From Anaeromyxobacter paludicola (GTDB taxonomy: Bacteria > Myxococcota > Myxococcia > Myxococcales > Anaeromyxobacteraceae): 64,000 nt of DNA. The stretch spans positions 2,976,001-3,040,000 of the forward strand of contig NZ_AP025592.1 of the NCBI RefSeq assembly GCF_023169965.1. Reading direction: 5' to 3'. Within the stretch, counting starts at the first letter, position 1; every line of letters begins with the position of its first letter. This document shows positions 17,251 through 52,105 of this stretch, in pieces. Both the position numbers and the translations under genes were made by a program. The notes under the pieces were generated by a model. It saw only the letters and a list, made by a program, of their open reading frames with translations. It made no database searches and had not been told where the DNA came from.

Positions 17251-18966
17251 ATGTCACGCTGCGTCATCGTCGCCGCGCTCGCCTGCTCTGCCGCCCTCCT
17301 CGCCTGCGGCAGCGGGCGCCACGCCGAGAGCGCCGGCGGTGCCCAGGGCGCCTGCGAGCGCTGCCACGGCGACGGGACCACCTCCCCGGTGTTCGGGCTC
17401 TCCAACACCTCCGACCCGCGCGTCGGCGCGCACCTCGCCCACGTGCAGGACGGCCCCGTCCGCCAGGGGCTCGGCTGCGACGCCTGCCACGCGGTGCCGC
17501 ACGCCGTCGGCGACCCGGGCCACTTCAGCGGCACGGGGCTCCTCGCCTTCGGCCCGCTCGCGACCGCCAACGGGAGGCTGACGCCCCGCTTCCTCCCCGG
17601 CGACGCGAGCACGCCGCCGTCCTGCAGCCAGGTCTACTGCCACGGCGCCACGCTGCAGGGCGGCCGCTTCACGCAGCCGGTCTGGACGCGGGTGGACGGC
17701 GCGCAGTCGGCCTGCGACGCCTGCCACGGCTACCCGCCCCCGCCGCCGCACCTCGCGGCCACCCGCTGCGAGGGGTGCCACGGCCGCACCGTCCGCCCGG
17801 ACGGCACCGTCGACGTGGCGGGCGGGTATCACGTGAACGGCCGGCTCGACGTCACCTTCAGCGCCGACGTGCCCTGCGGCGGCTGCCACGAGGTCCCGCC
17901 GGCCACCGGCTCGCACGCGGTCCACTTCGCCCTGCAGGGCGCGCCGCCCGTCGCCACCTACGGCGACCTGCGGATCCTCCAGGACTACGCGCCGCAGGGC
18001 GGTCCGGGCTACGCCTTCGGCTGCGGCAACTGCCACCCGCTCGACGCGGCCAAGCACGGCGACGGCGCGGTGGAGGTGGAGCTCCACGACCCCGCCGCGC
18101 CGGCCGGGAGCCTCAAGGCGCGCAACGGCCCCGGGGCCACCTACGCCGCCGACCGGACCTGCGGGCAGGTCTACTGCCACGGCTCCGGCCAGGACGCGCC
18201 CGCGTTCCAGCCGACGCCGGCCTGGGACTCCGGCGCGCGGCTCGGCTGCGACGGCTGCCACGGCAACCCGCCGCGCTACCCGAGCGGCGGGGCCGGCACC
18301 GCCACCGCCAACAGCCACCTCGTGCTCGGCGACGACGGGTGGGAGCTGGGCCACTTCCTCGGGATGCCGGGCGCGTGGCACCCCGGCGGCACCAAGCACG
18401 GCGGCGCGCTCGCGGCCGGGCAGGACGCGGCCCCCATCACCTGCCAGGCCTGCCACGCCGGGACGGTGGACCCGGGCCACACCGGCCCGTCGGGCTTCTA
18501 CTGGCTCGACACGAGCGGCAGCTACCAGCTGCCCGGCGGCGACCCGGCCCGCCTCACCACCCGCACCTACGCCGACCTCGCCTGCACCGCCTGCCACGGC
18601 ACGGCGGGCGGGCCCGCGGCCGAGGGCGGCGCGGTGCTCCCGCGCCTGCACGTGAACGGCCGGCGCGACGTGGTCTTCGACGCGCGCACCGCGCTCCCGG
18701 GGAGCATCCCCTGGCTGCCCGCCGCGCCCGACCGGCCCACCCGGCCGTACTGGGTGACGAGCGCGGCCACGCTGGTGGACCCGGCGCAGGTGCCGGGCGC
18801 GGTGATGGACGGCACCACGCTCTCCGTCCACCTCGCCGACGCGCGCTGGGACCCGGCGACGAAGACCTGCACGTCGGTGGGGTGCCACCTCGCGCAGACC
18901 TCGGTGCGCTGGGGCACGACGCCCGTGGGGAGCGCCACCTGCGGCGCCTGCCACGGGCTGCCGTGA
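17251..18966 (+). CDS. 13-haem c-type cytochrome lipoprotein (CxxCH and CxxxxCH)
   Basis: 571 residues. A lipobox-like LLACGS puts the lipidated Cys at residue 19, so it is probably an outer-membrane or surface lipoprotein. Ten CxxCH motifs (CERCH, CDACH twice, CEGCH, CGGCH, CGNCH, CDGCH, CQACH, CTACH, CGACH) and three CxxxxCH motifs (CSQVYCH, CGQVYCH, CTSVGCH) give 13 potential haems in 571 residues. The repeated pairing of CxxxxCH with a following CxxCH is the pattern of a Geobacter-type family (GSU-type C4xCH/CxxCH). There is no membrane anchor or enzymatic domain, so it is probably an electron conduit to extracellular acceptors. AGGA lies nine bases before the ATG. It is divergent from nifJ. 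Confidence 0.9.
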   Translation: MSRCVIVAALACSAALLACGSGRHAESAGGAQGACERCHGDGTTSPVFGLSNTSDPRVGAHLAHVQDGPVRQGLGCDACHAVPHAVGDPGHFSGTGLLAFGPLATANGRLTPRFLPGDASTPPSCSQVYCHGATLQGGRFTQPVWTRVDGAQSACDACHGYPPPPPHLAATRCEGCHGRTVRPDGTVDVAGGYHVNGRLDVTFSADVPCGGCHEVPPATGSHAVHFALQGAPPVATYGDLRILQDYAPQGGPGYAFGCGNCHPLDAAKHGDGAVEVELHDPAAPAGSLKARNGPGATYAADRTCGQVYCHGSGQDAPAFQPTPAWDSGARLGCDGCHGNPPRYPSGGAGTATANSHLVLGDDGWELGHFLGMPGAWHPGGTKHGGALAAGQDAAPITCQACHAGTVDPGHTGPSGFYWLDTSGSYQLPGGDPARLTTRTYADLACTACHGTAGGPAAEGGAVLPRLHVNGRRDVVFDARTALPGSIPWLPAAPDRPTRPYWVTSAATLVDPAQVPGAVMDGTTLSVHLADARWDPATKTCTSVGCHLAQTSVRWGTTPVGSATCGACHGLP

Positions 18967-46336: not shown

Positions 46337-49300
46337 ATGTACCGATTCGAGTCGTGCGCCTCGGGGGGCGACGATGCGCGGCGTTCCGCGCTCCACCTAC
46401 TCCGCCGCACACTGCTCGTCGCCCTGGGCGCGCTCGTCCTGTGGGCCGGGCCGGCCGGCGCCCAGACCAAGACCTACCGCTGGCAGCCCAACGACAACAC
46501 CGGCACCTTCGGCGGCTACACGGTGAGCTACGGGGCCTGGTACAACTCCTGGGGGTGCAGCGCCGCCTCGAACGTCGTCCAGCGGCGCGTCACCTCGATG
46601 AACACCAGCAGCACCTTCGCCTGCAACACCGGCACGTACGTCTCGACGTCCCAGAGCGGTCCGTTCGAGCTGCTGCTCGCCATCAGCGACGCGGCCTACG
46701 CGGCGGACACCCTCGTCACCGGCAAGAGCACCGGCACCCGGATCGCGCTCAACAAGAGCGTCAGCCTGCCGGTCACCGTTCGGATCACGCTCGGCTACGC
46801 GTCGGGCGGCTACCTCTACCCGTGGGGCTACACCGAGGTGCCGGTCAACGGGGCCGGCGTCATCACCCCCGACCTCTCCCGGATCTCGGGCGTGGCCCCG
46901 GCCGGCACCAACCTCGCCATGCAGGTGGCCCTGGTCACCAACAGCGGCGGCGACTCGGTCACCGTCTACGTGGGCGACTCGCGCGCGACCGGCGACGCCT
47001 CGGGCACGCTGGTGGTGGACGAGGGCACCTCGGGCACCGTCACCATCGCCGACGTCGCCACCAAGGAGGCGAACAACGGCCTCGTCGTGGCCCCCGGCAG
47101 CGGCGCCATCGTGCTCGACGGCTTCCTCGTCTCGACCACCTCCAACACCAGCCCGTCGATCTTCACCGTCACCCTCGCCTTCGACGCCGGCACGGCCGAG
47201 GCGGTGAGCCTGGTCGAGGTGACCGACTCGACGGGCGCCACCGTCTACGGCTCGGTCTCGAACCCGGGGGTGGACACGTTCGACGTCGCGCTCAACCCGG
47301 CCATCTTCGCCACCACCACGCCGACCGAGTACCGGGTGCGGGTCACGCCCAAGAGCCAGACCGCCCTGCCGAGCGTGAAGAACTGGACCGTCCGCGGCGT
47401 CGTCTACGGCGCCATGAGCGCGCTCCCGGCCACCATCACCGACGCGGACAGCGCCCGCATCGTGATCGACAACCTGCCGCCGTCGCCGCCGAGCGGCCTC
47501 GTCGCCCAGGCGGGCGCCAGCCAGGAGAGCCTGGGCTGGACCAACCCGCTCAACGTGGACCTCAGCCAGGTGGTGGTGGTCCGCGGCACCTCGGCCACCT
47601 TCACCGGCGCGCCGGTGGACGGGACCACCTACGCCGTGGGCAACGCCATCGGCAACGGCACGGTGGCCTGCGTGGTGGCGAAGCCCGGCGCGACCTGCAC
47701 CGACACGCAGGCGAGCGGCGCCTGGTACTACCAGGCCTTCGCGGTGGACCTGTACGGCAACTACTCGGCCGCGAGCAACGTGGCCGGGCCGGTCGCGCCC
47801 GGCGCGACCACCACCCTCGCCGACGGCGCCCCCGCGGCCGCGAGCGTCTCCCCGCTCTGCCCCGGCAGCGCCATGACCTTCGCCGACGCCTTCAGCCTGC
47901 AGGCGAGCAGCGGCGCGGCCGACACCGTCACCGGGCTCACCGTGCGGCTCGCGGCGGGCACCTCCCCGCAGGTGGCGGCCGTCACCCTCACCGACGCGAA
48001 CAACGTCGTCCTCGCCACCGGGACGCGCCCGTCCGCCGGCGACGACTGGACCTTCACCGGCCTCTCGCTCCCGGTGCCGGTGTCGCCGGCCGCCGCGGGG
48101 CAGTACCGGATCCAGCTCACGCCGCAGCCGCACACGCTGCTCCCCGAGGTCCCGGGCGCCACCTACGCGCTCACGGCCCGCGTGGTCGGGGCGACCAAGG
48201 CGCTCTCGACGAACCTCCTCGTCACCGACACCGCCGAGGCGACCCTCAGCCTCGACAACTCGTCGCCCGCCGCGGTGACCGGCCTCACCGCGTCCAGCCC
48301 CGGCTCCGGCCAGATGACCGTGAGCTGGACCAGCACCGGCGGGTACACCCTGCTGGCGCGCAGCACCGCGCCGATCACGCGCGGGGCGCCGGCCGAGGGC
48401 ACCGCCACCTACAACCCCGGCGACGCCCTCGCGACCAACGTCGCCGTGGCCTGCACCGGGAACATCGCGACCTGCACCGACACCGGCCTCGTGAACGGCA
48501 CCACCTACTACTACCGGGCGTTCACCCGGGACTCCTGCGCCAACTGGTCGCTGGGCGCCGACGTGTACGGCGGCCCCTCGGTGACCCTGCCGACCGGCAC
48601 CGTCGCGACCGTCACGACCCAGCCCACGGGGTCGATCACCCGCGGCGGCGCGCCGGTCATCGCCGGCTACGTCAAGCTCACTGCCGGCGCGAGCGGCAGC
48701 GTGACGCTCGGGCAGATCGCCGTCGCCAACGCGGCGGCGACCTCTCCCGCGGCGGCCGACACCGACATCGCGAGCGTGGTGATCGCGAACGACACCACCG
48801 GCGCGGTCCTCGGCGTGGCCACCTGGAACGCCAGCGCCGCCCGCTACGTGCTGTCCGGGCTCTCGACCACCGTCCCGGCGGGCAGCACCCTGACCCTGCG
48901 GGTGACGGTGGCCGCGGCGCGCGCCGCGACCATCGGCGCGCAGTTCCAGCTCCGGGTGGCGCCCGCCGACGTCACGCTCGCGGCCCCCGCCGCGACCGCC
49001 GGCTCGACCGTGACCGGGAACGCCTTCGCCATCGTCGCCGGCGCCATCGCCGAGGGCAGCACCACCGGGTACTCGCTCCTGCCGCAGGTGTCGATCGTGA
49101 ACCCGTCCGACAACAAGGTGCTGAGCGGCGGGTTCCGGCTCCAGGTCCACGTCTGGAGCCCGACCGCCAACGGCGTGGCCGACCTGCTCTCGTACACCTA
49201 CTCGACCAACGGCTCCGCCCCGGACTGCACCGGCACGGCCAAGACCCTCACCCAGAGCGGCAACTACCAGCTCGGGCAGCGCGCCGGGATCTTCGAGGCG

Positions 49301-52105
49301 CAGGTCTCCACGCTCCCCCAGGGCAGCTACATCCTGCGGGCCTGCGCCCGGACCAGCGACGGCGTGGTGCAGGCGCGCGCGGTCAACTTCGTGGTGAAGG
49401 CCGGGAACGCCGGGGACGGCAACCTCCTCGTCCGCGACAACTCCGAGCAGCTCTGCACCGACTGCCACAACCTGCGCTCCCACTCCTCCGAGACCACGAG
49501 CCGCAAGTACGGCTCCTTCGCCATCGGCTGCCGCGACTGCCACGCGCCGCACGGCAGCAAGAACACCTACCTCGTGAAGGGCCAGATCACGCCCCCGGCG
49601 GTGAACGGCGTGCAGGCCCCGCGGACGGTCAACTTCAAGAAGACCAGCGGCGACTCCGGGGTGAGCGGCAGCGATCCGAACGCCTCCTTCATCAACTCCG
49701 ACGGGACCGGCCCCTGCCAGACCTGCCACACCCGCACCTCGAACCCGTGGGACTCGACGGTGCCGCGCTGGCGCAACACCGGCAACTCCGACAGCCACTA
49801 CTCCCAGAAGGCCGGGACGACGTCCTGCTTCAACTGCCACAAGCACAAGAACGGCTTCAGCCCGGAGAGCCGCGGCGGCGACTCCTGCGACCAGTGCCAC
49901 CAGAAGATCTGGGAGCGCATGAGCGGCACCGTGGCGAAGGTCTCGCGCCACCCCATCGGCAACGTGCCCGGCACGAACACCTCGCCGGTGGACAACAACA
50001 TCTCCTGGACCACCGGGCCGCTCAAGACCGCCAACGACCCGTCGGTGCGCTCCTGCCTCAACATGTGCCACCCGGACAAGCGGCACAACGAGCCGGGCGG
50101 CTGGACCCACGCCTTCGGCGTCTACGGCGACCCCACCACCGGCACCAGCCGGGCGGTGACGCGCGGCAGCGACGGCGAGATCGTGACCGGCAACGTCTCC
50201 GACAGCGACTTCGACGCCACCAAGACCGGCGGCGGGCTCTGCGCCGGGTGCCACCAGCAGCCCATCAACTCCGGCGGCTACACCATCTCGAAGGACACCT
50301 TCGGCGGCACGGCGCACGACTTCGACTCGGACGTGGTCTGGGGCACCTGGGGCTACACCATGCGCGACGGCTCGCGCTTCCGCCGCAACTGCACCAAGTG
50401 CCACTCGGATCGGGCGGACAAGCAGCCCACCGACGACACCTACCCCTTCGGCGCGGTCCACTACTCCGACTACCCGAAGCTCCTCGCCGGCTCGCTCAAG
50501 CCGGGCACCGACGGCCAGGCCGTCTTCCTCTGCTTCAACTGCCACGGCAACGGCGTCATCGGCGTGAACCGCTCGAACGACCTCGCCTCGCCCACCAACA
50601 AGTTCTACGCCCACCCGGTCGCGACCGACACGCAGCACCAGCTCGGCGACGCCGAGTACAACGCCGCCGCCTGGGGCAACGAGCTCGGCAACGGGCCGGG
50701 CACGCGCCACGCGAGCTGCCTCGACTGCCACGTCACCCACCTCGCCAAGCGCGGCGGCCACTCGTACATCAGCGGCACGGTCTCGGTGGCGGCGGGCAGC
50801 ACCGCGGTGACCGGGGTGGACACCCGCTGGACCTCCTTCTACGTCGGCGGTCGCATCAAGTTCGGCTCGACCACCTTCGACACCGGCCGCACCGCCACCT
50901 GGTACACCATCGCCTCGGTGGCGAGCCCGACCTCCCTCACGCTCACCGCGGCCCCCAGCACGGCCTACTCCGGCGTCCCCTACCGCATCGAGCAGATGAC
51001 CAACAAGGCCGGCCCGGCGGTGGACGGCGCCTGGGGCGTGGTGCCGAACTGGGCTCGCATCGCCGCCGGCGCCAAGGCCGCGAGCGACCTCGACGTCACC
51101 AAGAAGAAGCTCGCCTACAACTCGGACCTCGAGGCGTACCTCTGCATGAAGTGCCACTCCAGCTACTGGTGGGGGAGCGCCACGCCGCCGGTGTCGCGGT
51201 CCGGCTTCAGCTACTACATGGGCACGGCCTCGTTCACCAACGGGAGCACCACGGTGACCGGCCAGAACACCACCACCACCTACACGTACGGCTCCACCAG
51301 CACCACCTCCGGCTGGCTGCCCACCGCCAACCCCGGCCGCTACGTGGGCGCCCTGATCCAGAACGCCGCCGACGGCACCTGGTACAAGATCGTGAGCGTC
51401 CAGAGCAACACCCAGCTCACCATCGACCGGGCCTACGCCGGGACCACCGTGAGCGCGCAGCCGTACGCCATCCAGATGGCCCACACCGACCAGCTGCAGG
51501 AGTTCAACCCGGCCAACAAGGGCTACCACCCGGTGTTCCAGTCGCGCACCACCCAGACCGGCTACGGCACGGGCTCCATCGGCGATCCCAGCGTGGCGGG
51601 CAAGTACTGGCCGGTGACGCAGAACATCCTCTCGCCCTGGACCATGACGAGCACCATGACCTGCAGCGACTGCCACGAGGCCGACACCCCGAACGACGCG
51701 GGCGGCCCGCACGGCTCCTCCTACAAGTTCATGCTCAAGGGGCCGAACCGGATCTGGGACGAGAACGTGAAGAACTCGAGCTCGGGCATGCCGGCCGGGA
51801 CCTTCTGCGCCAACTGCCACGACGCGACCTTCCCCACCTCCGGCACCACCAAGAGCCGCTTCCCGGAGCACCGGATCGGCGACCACGCCGGGAAGATCTG
51901 CTTCGACTGCCACAACGCCATCCCGCACGGCTCCTCGAGCGTCGGCATGCTCAACAACGGCAGCGGCACCGGGTTCAGCGACCACGTCTACCCGTACGAC
52001 CAGTCGGTGAGCGGCAAGCGGCTCTACATCAACTCCGTCCCCTCCAGCGGCTACTTCGACCAGCAGAGCTACTGCGGCTGCAGCAGCCCCTCGCAGCACG
52101 GCTAG
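46337..52105 (+). CDS. Giant multihaem c-type cytochrome with N-terminal beta-sandwich repeats
   Basis: 1,922 residues, one of the largest cytochrome chains expected in such genomes. A signal peptide (LLVALGALVLWAGPAGAQ) ends near residue 46. Residues 50-1030 are Ser/Thr/Gly-rich beta domains with fibronectin-like features (DNLPPSPPSGLVAQ, SSPAAVTGLTAS, YYYRAF). Haem motifs run from residue 1040 to 1855: 13 CxxCH (CTDCH, CRDCH, CQTCH, CFNCH twice, CDQCH, CAGCH, CTKCH, CLDCH, CMKCH, CSDCH, CANCH, CFDCH) and one CxxxCH (CLNMCH at 1240). Two further beta modules (1477-1555, 1626-1715) lie between haem motifs. It is probably an exported or surface electron-transfer protein. ATG 46337 is the only in-frame start before the signal. 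Confidence 0.9.
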   Translation: MYRFESCASGGDDARRSALHLLRRTLLVALGALVLWAGPAGAQTKTYRWQPNDNTGTFGGYTVSYGAWYNSWGCSAASNVVQRRVTSMNTSSTFACNTGTYVSTSQSGPFELLLAISDAAYAADTLVTGKSTGTRIALNKSVSLPVTVRITLGYASGGYLYPWGYTEVPVNGAGVITPDLSRISGVAPAGTNLAMQVALVTNSGGDSVTVYVGDSRATGDASGTLVVDEGTSGTVTIADVATKEANNGLVVAPGSGAIVLDGFLVSTTSNTSPSIFTVTLAFDAGTAEAVSLVEVTDSTGATVYGSVSNPGVDTFDVALNPAIFATTTPTEYRVRVTPKSQTALPSVKNWTVRGVVYGAMSALPATITDADSARIVIDNLPPSPPSGLVAQAGASQESLGWTNPLNVDLSQVVVVRGTSATFTGAPVDGTTYAVGNAIGNGTVACVVAKPGATCTDTQASGAWYYQAFAVDLYGNYSAASNVAGPVAPGATTTLADGAPAAASVSPLCPGSAMTFADAFSLQASSGAADTVTGLTVRLAAGTSPQVAAVTLTDANNVVLATGTRPSAGDDWTFTGLSLPVPVSPAAAGQYRIQLTPQPHTLLPEVPGATYALTARVVGATKALSTNLLVTDTAEATLSLDNSSPAAVTGLTASSPGSGQMTVSWTSTGGYTLLARSTAPITRGAPAEGTATYNPGDALATNVAVACTGNIATCTDTGLVNGTTYYYRAFTRDSCANWSLGADVYGGPSVTLPTGTVATVTTQPTGSITRGGAPVIAGYVKLTAGASGSVTLGQIAVANAAATSPAAADTDIASVVIANDTTGAVLGVATWNASAARYVLSGLSTTVPAGSTLTLRVTVAAARAATIGAQFQLRVAPADVTLAAPAATAGSTVTGNAFAIVAGAIAEGSTTGYSLLPQVSIVNPSDNKVLSGGFRLQVHVWSPTANGVADLLSYTYSTNGSAPDCTGTAKTLTQSGNYQLGQRAGIFEAQVSTLPQGSYILRACARTSDGVVQARAVNFVVKAGNAGDGNLLVRDNSEQLCTDCHNLRSHSSETTSRKYGSFAIGCRDCHAPHGSKNTYLVKGQITPPAVNGVQAPRTVNFKKTSGDSGVSGSDPNASFINSDGTGPCQTCHTRTSNPWDSTVPRWRNTGNSDSHYSQKAGTTSCFNCHKHKNGFSPESRGGDSCDQCHQKIWERMSGTVAKVSRHPIGNVPGTNTSPVDNNISWTTGPLKTANDPSVRSCLNMCHPDKRHNEPGGWTHAFGVYGDPTTGTSRAVTRGSDGEIVTGNVSDSDFDATKTGGGLCAGCHQQPINSGGYTISKDTFGGTAHDFDSDVVWGTWGYTMRDGSRFRRNCTKCHSDRADKQPTDDTYPFGAVHYSDYPKLLAGSLKPGTDGQAVFLCFNCHGNGVIGVNRSNDLASPTNKFYAHPVATDTQHQLGDAEYNAAAWGNELGNGPGTRHASCLDCHVTHLAKRGGHSYISGTVSVAAGSTAVTGVDTRWTSFYVGGRIKFGSTTFDTGRTATWYTIASVASPTSLTLTAAPSTAYSGVPYRIEQMTNKAGPAVDGAWGVVPNWARIAAGAKAASDLDVTKKKLAYNSDLEAYLCMKCHSSYWWGSATPPVSRSGFSYYMGTASFTNGSTTVTGQNTTTTYTYGSTSTTSGWLPTANPGRYVGALIQNAADGTWYKIVSVQSNTQLTIDRAYAGTTVSAQPYAIQMAHTDQLQEFNPANKGYHPVFQSRTTQTGYGTGSIGDPSVAGKYWPVTQNILSPWTMTSTMTCSDCHEADTPNDAGGPHGSSYKFMLKGPNRIWDENVKNSSSGMPAGTFCANCHDATFPTSGTTKSRFPEHRIGDHAGKICFDCHNAIPHGSSSVGMLNNGSGTGFSDHVYPYDQSVSGKRLYINSVPSSGYFDQQSYCGCSSPSQHG

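Follow-up and report, generated by a model that had tools for sequence, protein, structure and literature searches.

Predicted beta-barrel modules of phage-tail-fibre type inserted between the haem motifs of a giant c-type cytochrome

Multihaem cytochromes that carry surface-binding beta domains are already established, both in the ANME MHC proteins and in OetF. In the sections of Chadwick et al. 2022 (PMC9012536) consulted, MHC-A, MHC-B and MHC-C are giant archaeal chains in which haem arrays are joined to domains of cell-surface or adhesion type; the pectin-lyase-like domain of MHC-C is related by the authors to phage tail spikes, and the S-layer domain of MHC-A/B carries one haem motif in an internal linker. 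Those sections describe no tail-fibre barrel repeatedly inserted in inter-haem loops. OetF of syntrophic sulfate reducers, in the portions of Murali et al. 2023 (PMC10553843) used here, is a fibronectin-domain cytochrome with a proposed contact to a conductive matrix or partner, and those portions describe no inter-haem modules for it. Porin-cytochrome (Pcc) components of Anaeromyxobacter are multihaem c-type proteins implicated in extracellular electron transfer (PMC4245776).

Here we describe P0001, our label for the 1,922-aa protein encoded at 46337..52105 on the forward strand of the window, the whole 64,000-nt stretch of DNA that was analysed. The ANME proteins, as far as the sections consulted describe them, are archaeal and bear S-layer, peptidase M6-like and pectin lyase domains, with C-terminal transmembrane helices in MHC-A/B, whereas P0001 has no Pfam match to an S-layer, peptidase M6 or pectin-lyase domain. 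Its likeness to OetF, going by the same portions of that paper, is one of domain type, with fibronectin domains there and an fn3/Ig-like N-terminal half here. The Pcc cytochromes come from the same family of organisms but are compact (338-344 aa), periplasmic and encoded beside a porin, whereas P0001 is giant; the flanking ORFs examined include no recognised porin family, though several match no family. For the nanowire cytochromes OmcS, OmcE and OmcZ, the P0001 sequence matched no PDB chain at all at E up to 0.01, and a profile gave generic haem-protein matches alone and no nanowire subunit. Repeated insertion of a tail-fibre-type barrel inside a haem array was not found in those parts of the literature that our search covered.

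The P0001 ORF begins with ATG in a reading frame that is open from 46318. Scans upstream of the gene gave no riboswitch at the Rfam gathering score and no sigma-70 promoter match. A putative Sec signal peptide, read by eye from the sequence, spans residues 1-42 (46337..46462), with the Sec-like segment RRTLLVALGALVLWAGPAGA followed by QT, so that cleavage between AGA and QT would place the mature start at 46463. Residues 43-1004 (46463..49348, ~960 residues) are predicted to form tandem beta-sandwich domains of fn3/Ig-like type. A model of residues 44-1008 (m685611659dbf, nine-sequence alignment) is all-beta with mean pLDDT 70.7, and most of its best PDB fold matches are chains of consecutive fn3 and Ig domains; a profile of this half matches the bacterial Ig domain 9kvu (E 1.7e-4), and Pfam gives weak fn3-type signals. 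An estimate of about 980 residues of beta-sandwich repeats in the first-pass annotation was thus a fair one.

The haem half (residues 1005-1922, 49349..52102) is conserved in paralogues and in other phyla. It contains 14 haem motifs (13 CX2CH and one CX3CH), as had been counted before, all within residues 1040-1859 and starting at residues 1040, 1065, 1127, 1164, 1184, 1240, 1302, 1352, 1399, 1461, 1603, 1776, 1824 and 1855. Shuffles of P0001 contain a mean of 0.013 CX2CH motifs against the 13 observed. Pfam recognises Paired_CXXCH_1 (E 1.7e-16), Cytochrome_C7 (E 2.3e-13) and Cytochrom_NNT in this half, and with its 14 motifs and recognised cytochrome domains P0001 is a multihaem c-type cytochrome. 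The atypical motif, CLNMCH of haem 6 (residues 1240-1245, 50054..50071), is nearly invariant in the family alignment (C236, C240 and H241 there). A smaller multihaem cytochrome of the Geobacter CxxxxCH/CxxCH type is encoded at 17251-18966 of the window, 27 kb upstream of P0001.

Two Ser/Thr-rich modules, related to each other, interrupt the haem array on either side of haem 11 (CMKCH, residues 1603-1607, 51143..51157). Module 1 (residues 1477-1553, 50765..50995) follows haem 10 (CLDCH, residues 1461-1465, 50717..50731) and is a predicted six-strand barrel of tail-fibre type. Module 2 (residues 1626-1714, 51212..51478), of the same type with a Thr/Ser insertion, precedes haem 12 (CSDCH, residues 1776-1780, 51662..51676). 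The first-pass annotation had recognised this pair, with boundaries that prove slightly too long, and its general picture of a giant exported cytochrome with beta modules between haem motifs agrees with the ORF, the motifs and the HMM matches.

Several sequence comparisons connect the modules to each other's relatives and to phage proteins. An HMM built solely from modules of other genera finds both P0001 modules (E 1.2e-7 and 7.4e-6), where the best of 1,000 composition-preserving module shuffles reaches E 0.034. When full-length P0001 is scanned against PHROGs, the sole matches are to tail-fibre families and fall exactly at the two modules (module 1 with PHROG_1980, E 4e-10; module 2 with PHROG_2712, E 2.2e-9), so the signal does not reflect a general Ser/Thr-rich beta composition. 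PHROG_1980, annotated as ‘tail fiber protein’, is matched by 9/13 family modules, with a best E of 1.1e-14. Pfam, in contrast to PHROGs, gave no match to the two modules alone even at E 10. Single-module searches of the PDB were nearly empty, with 25ve as the only match (E 0.014, to module 2), and a module profile was therefore needed; it matches the F2-pyocin side fibre 25ve (residues 6-72, E 4.6e-8) and the distal tail protein 23gd (residues 3-70, E 4.8e-7). Hydrophobic and Gly/Trp positions of the modules are kept across genera at 29-46% identity. Both P0001 modules lack Cys and His, and they therefore bring neither haem attachment sites nor axial histidine ligands.

Predicted structure agrees with these assignments. 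An AlphaFold model of residues 1005-1922, made without haems from a 29-sequence alignment, has a mean pLDDT of 49, and the haem core is mostly below 50, as is usual without haems. The modules are the most confidently predicted parts of this half (pLDDT 63-91 for module 1; 67-86 for module 2 outside its Thr/Ser-rich insertion). With six strands and pLDDT up to 91, they are modelled as small beta-barrels, and the alternative that they are disordered linkers finds no support in the prediction. In VIA-align comparisons, module 1 matches the phage decoration protein 8eci (Z 8.4) and tail or tailspike domains of lambda, Mystique and LKA1 (Z 7.5-7.9). For module 2 the matches are a virion protein of a gene transfer agent (Z 7.7, 3% identity) and domains of tailspikes or lyases (Z 6.3-6.8, including K1 lyase 7w1d at Z 6.8), with similar scores for Uba1-type barrels. 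Values of Z below 8 are not strong alone; here the sequence evidence points independently the same way, as do viral tail-fibre models from BFVD, which match the modules at rmsd 2.2-3 Å over ~80 residues. The related folds also include the P22 coat I-domain and the Uba1 barrel, both of which we take to be loop-inserted domains.

Comparison within the genome indicates how the modules sit in the haem core. Besides a paralogue that is 82% identical to P0001 and bears the same modules, the genome encodes six others that are more distant; four of the six have the same 14-haem array and no tail-fibre modules, another (L014) has divergent barrels at both module sites, and the last (L015) is shorter. 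With their modules, the P0001 loops measure 142 residues (haems 10-11) and 173 residues (haems 11-12), and without them 65 and 84, beside corresponding loops of 60-71 and 64-75 residues in the module-free paralogues and Anaeromyxobacter terrae. The core motifs flanking the insertions (EA.LC.KCH, EFNP.N and GPHGS) are equally conserved with and without modules. By these alignments the modules of P0001 are clean loop insertions. Homologues either lack the segments, with their flanking loops intact, or carry homologous modules; ordinary cytochrome loops do not stand in their place.

A second barrel-like module type, with the pattern GxxxGQxRxI...LTV...Y.I, occupies the site-1 loop (haems 10-11, the position of module 1) in L014, L179 (haem 10-11) and L070. 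DNA similarity between P0001 (window 46412-52105) and the 82% paralogue (L009, 4426-11568) covers the gene and ends exactly at the stop codon. A ResB-like gene lies 3' of the paralogue and not of P0001. With similarity ending at the stop and differing neighbours, the copy appears to have moved without its neighbours, and the two different neighbourhoods offer no operon clue.

The insertions extend across phyla, where limited candidates were scored per genome and counts are therefore lower bounds. Among 195 Myxococcota genomes, 8 have the module, in 7/8 of them within a multihaem cytochrome. Site 1 and site 2 (the haem 11-12 loop, that of module 2) are both filled in uncultured Anaeromyxobacter MAGs, and in one of these proteins site 2 holds two modules in tandem. 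A genome from a different Myxococcota family, which lies outside the order, has a module at site 1 only, and G012 has one at site 2 and none at site 1. In Anaeromyxobacter oryzisoli SG63 the module lies between haems 3 and 4, and G022 encodes a different multihaem protein with one module between haem motifs. In Acidobacteriota we found at least 12 module-bearing cytochromes from at least 10 genomes. At least 11 of these are 13-haem proteins with 1 or 3 copies at the equivalent of P0001 site 2, before the last three haems, followed as in P0001 by EF...N.S.HPV and GPHGS signatures; a 14-haem protein (G440) has its module between haems 5 and 6. Tail-fibre-type modules are present in at least 10 of the 11 Acidobacteriota genomes with a related C-terminal core. 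Across Myxococcota and Acidobacteriota, then, a loop may hold 0, 1, 2 or 3 copies, and at least four inter-haem loops are used. On the core tree, carriers of both modules are scattered over at least three distinct positions. On the module tree, which is poorly resolved, site-1 and site-2 modules fall mostly in separate groups, and this suggests, from sequence, old insertions followed by loss, duplication and fresh gains, not repeated copying of one recent module.

Four Anaeromyxobacteraceae MAG relatives (L045, L046, L048 and L051) have 43-58 haem motifs per chain in up to 2,932 aa, and share the C-terminal haems of P0001. In two Binatota homologues (L095 8890-12642 and 1058-5158), the loop between haems 11 and 12 holds an unrelated ~200-residue beta domain, at the position of module 2. 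A pentahaem protein (spacing nearly constant at 24/62-74/125-149/70-92, last haem 17-19 residues from the C-terminal end) adjoins many giant cytochromes in Myxococcota and Acidobacteriota, at loci that include L010 15759-16964, L044 6579-7739, L049 2063-3154, L086 4244-7540 and L161 1-1485.

The suggestion that the modules resemble phage-tail beta domains is borne out by the PHROG, F2-pyocin side-fibre and decoration-protein matches. The likeness to phage tail and side-fibre modules (PHROG_1980, 1591, 2712 and 24607; 25ve; 8eci) is one of profile-level sequence and of fold. In phage fibres, however, the module is mostly N-terminal and is followed by fibre or receptor-binding domains, whereas in P0001 it lies between haem motifs of a c-type cytochrome and no fibre domains follow, and the protein as a whole is not a tail fibre. 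We use ‘phage-tail-fibre type’ for the resemblance, with no direction of transfer implied. A tblastn search of phages and plasmids with one module of a relative gave no match, and module 2 found only partial, weak matches in Pseudomonas phages (E 0.04 and above), so no recent phage donor is visible. Among 141 Geobacterales genomes surveyed, the module occurs in fibre-like N-termini and long surface proteins, with no haem motifs in the stretches read, and Acidobacteriota likewise have non-cytochrome carriers. Its presence in such surface and fibre-like proteins means that its function in P0001 need not be a phage one. A phage origin of the module was considered and is not claimed, given the haem-free Geobacterales and Acidobacteriota carriers and the poor resolution of the module tree.

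What might the modules do? The most likely reading, which we hold at slightly better than even confidence, is that they are side-mounted docking or binding barrels. P0001 would be an exported extracellular electron-transfer protein in which a long beta stalk of fn3/Ig-like type forms the N-terminal half and the 14-haem array the C-terminal half. The barrels in the 10-11 and 11-12 loops would project sideways, leaving the fold of the haem core unchanged, and by docking or binding would keep the C-terminal haems in contact with a mineral, the matrix or a partner protein. They would supply no haem ligands and would not make the haem chain longer. This docking role is suggested by the side-mounted position of the fold in solved proteins (the decoration protein, the P22 I-domain and the Uba1 barrel), by copy numbers that vary at fixed loops, and by the fn3/Ig stalk. 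Long fn3/Ig stalks are of the sort used on cell surfaces. One suggestion in the first-pass annotation was that the modules space the haems out along a fibre. They do lie inside the array and about double its loops (142 and 173 residues against ~65-75), yet a spacing role is disfavoured and we consider it very improbable: the modules are clean insertions free of Cys and His, the flanking core motifs are as well conserved in module-free relatives, and one versus three insertions at the same site would leave the haems at widely differing distances. Hopping of electrons requires haems no more than ~14 Å apart, and a barrel is ~30 Å across.

Two other explanations are harder to set aside, though we regard both as unlikely. 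The barrels may be assembly interfaces, whose barrel-barrel contacts link one cytochrome chain to another, or to a partner cytochrome, so as to build a polymer or a complex on the outer surface, much as N-terminal fibre modules might attach fibres to the tail. In solved phage proteins (the F2-pyocin side fibre, a distal tail protein, a depolymerase) the matching domain occupies the N-terminus (residues ~3-75), a position that we take to be an attachment end, and the pentahaem gene beside many family members could encode such a partner. At L010 and L044, however, paralogues without modules adjoin this same pentahaem gene, so such a partnership does not require them, and P0001 has no pentahaem neighbour within the window; we give an assembly role a modest chance at best. 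About as doubtful, and a shade more so, is the idea that these loops are simply permissive, with common small barrels inserted, duplicated and lost to little functional effect. Presence does vary between close relatives, with carriers in several places on the core tree, and the same loops accept other barrel types (L014, G369) and, in Binatota L095, an unrelated beta domain. Against mere tolerance stand the near-constant occurrence in Acidobacteriota genomes with a related core, the hydrophobic and Gly/Trp positions conserved across genera, and the recurrence of insertions in inter-haem loops.

More tentatively, the inter-haem loops could be an exchange site for small beta-barrel binding modules, namely the tail-fibre type, a second one of GxxxGQxRxI type, and unrelated beta domains. 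Such modules would have been exchanged and multiplied separately in Myxococcota, Acidobacteriota and Binatota, and would direct the haem tip to different surfaces; P0001 would then belong to a family of modular conductive adhesins, a proposal we advance as a possibility. The family bears on target recognition by extracellular cytochromes, whether of minerals, matrix or partner cells, and the same loop with 0-3 defined, excisable barrels in homologous proteins makes such recognition directly testable. It also shows that an entire folded domain can be accommodated between adjacent haem motifs of an array, a point of use in protein engineering and in annotating giant cytochromes.

P0001 ends in a further family-conserved motif, CGCx5H (residues 1913-1921, 52073..52099). 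Its CxC and His (C626, C628 and H634 in the alignment) are invariant in 17 sequences; the motif might bind a metal, attach a haem in an unusual way or act as a sorting signal.
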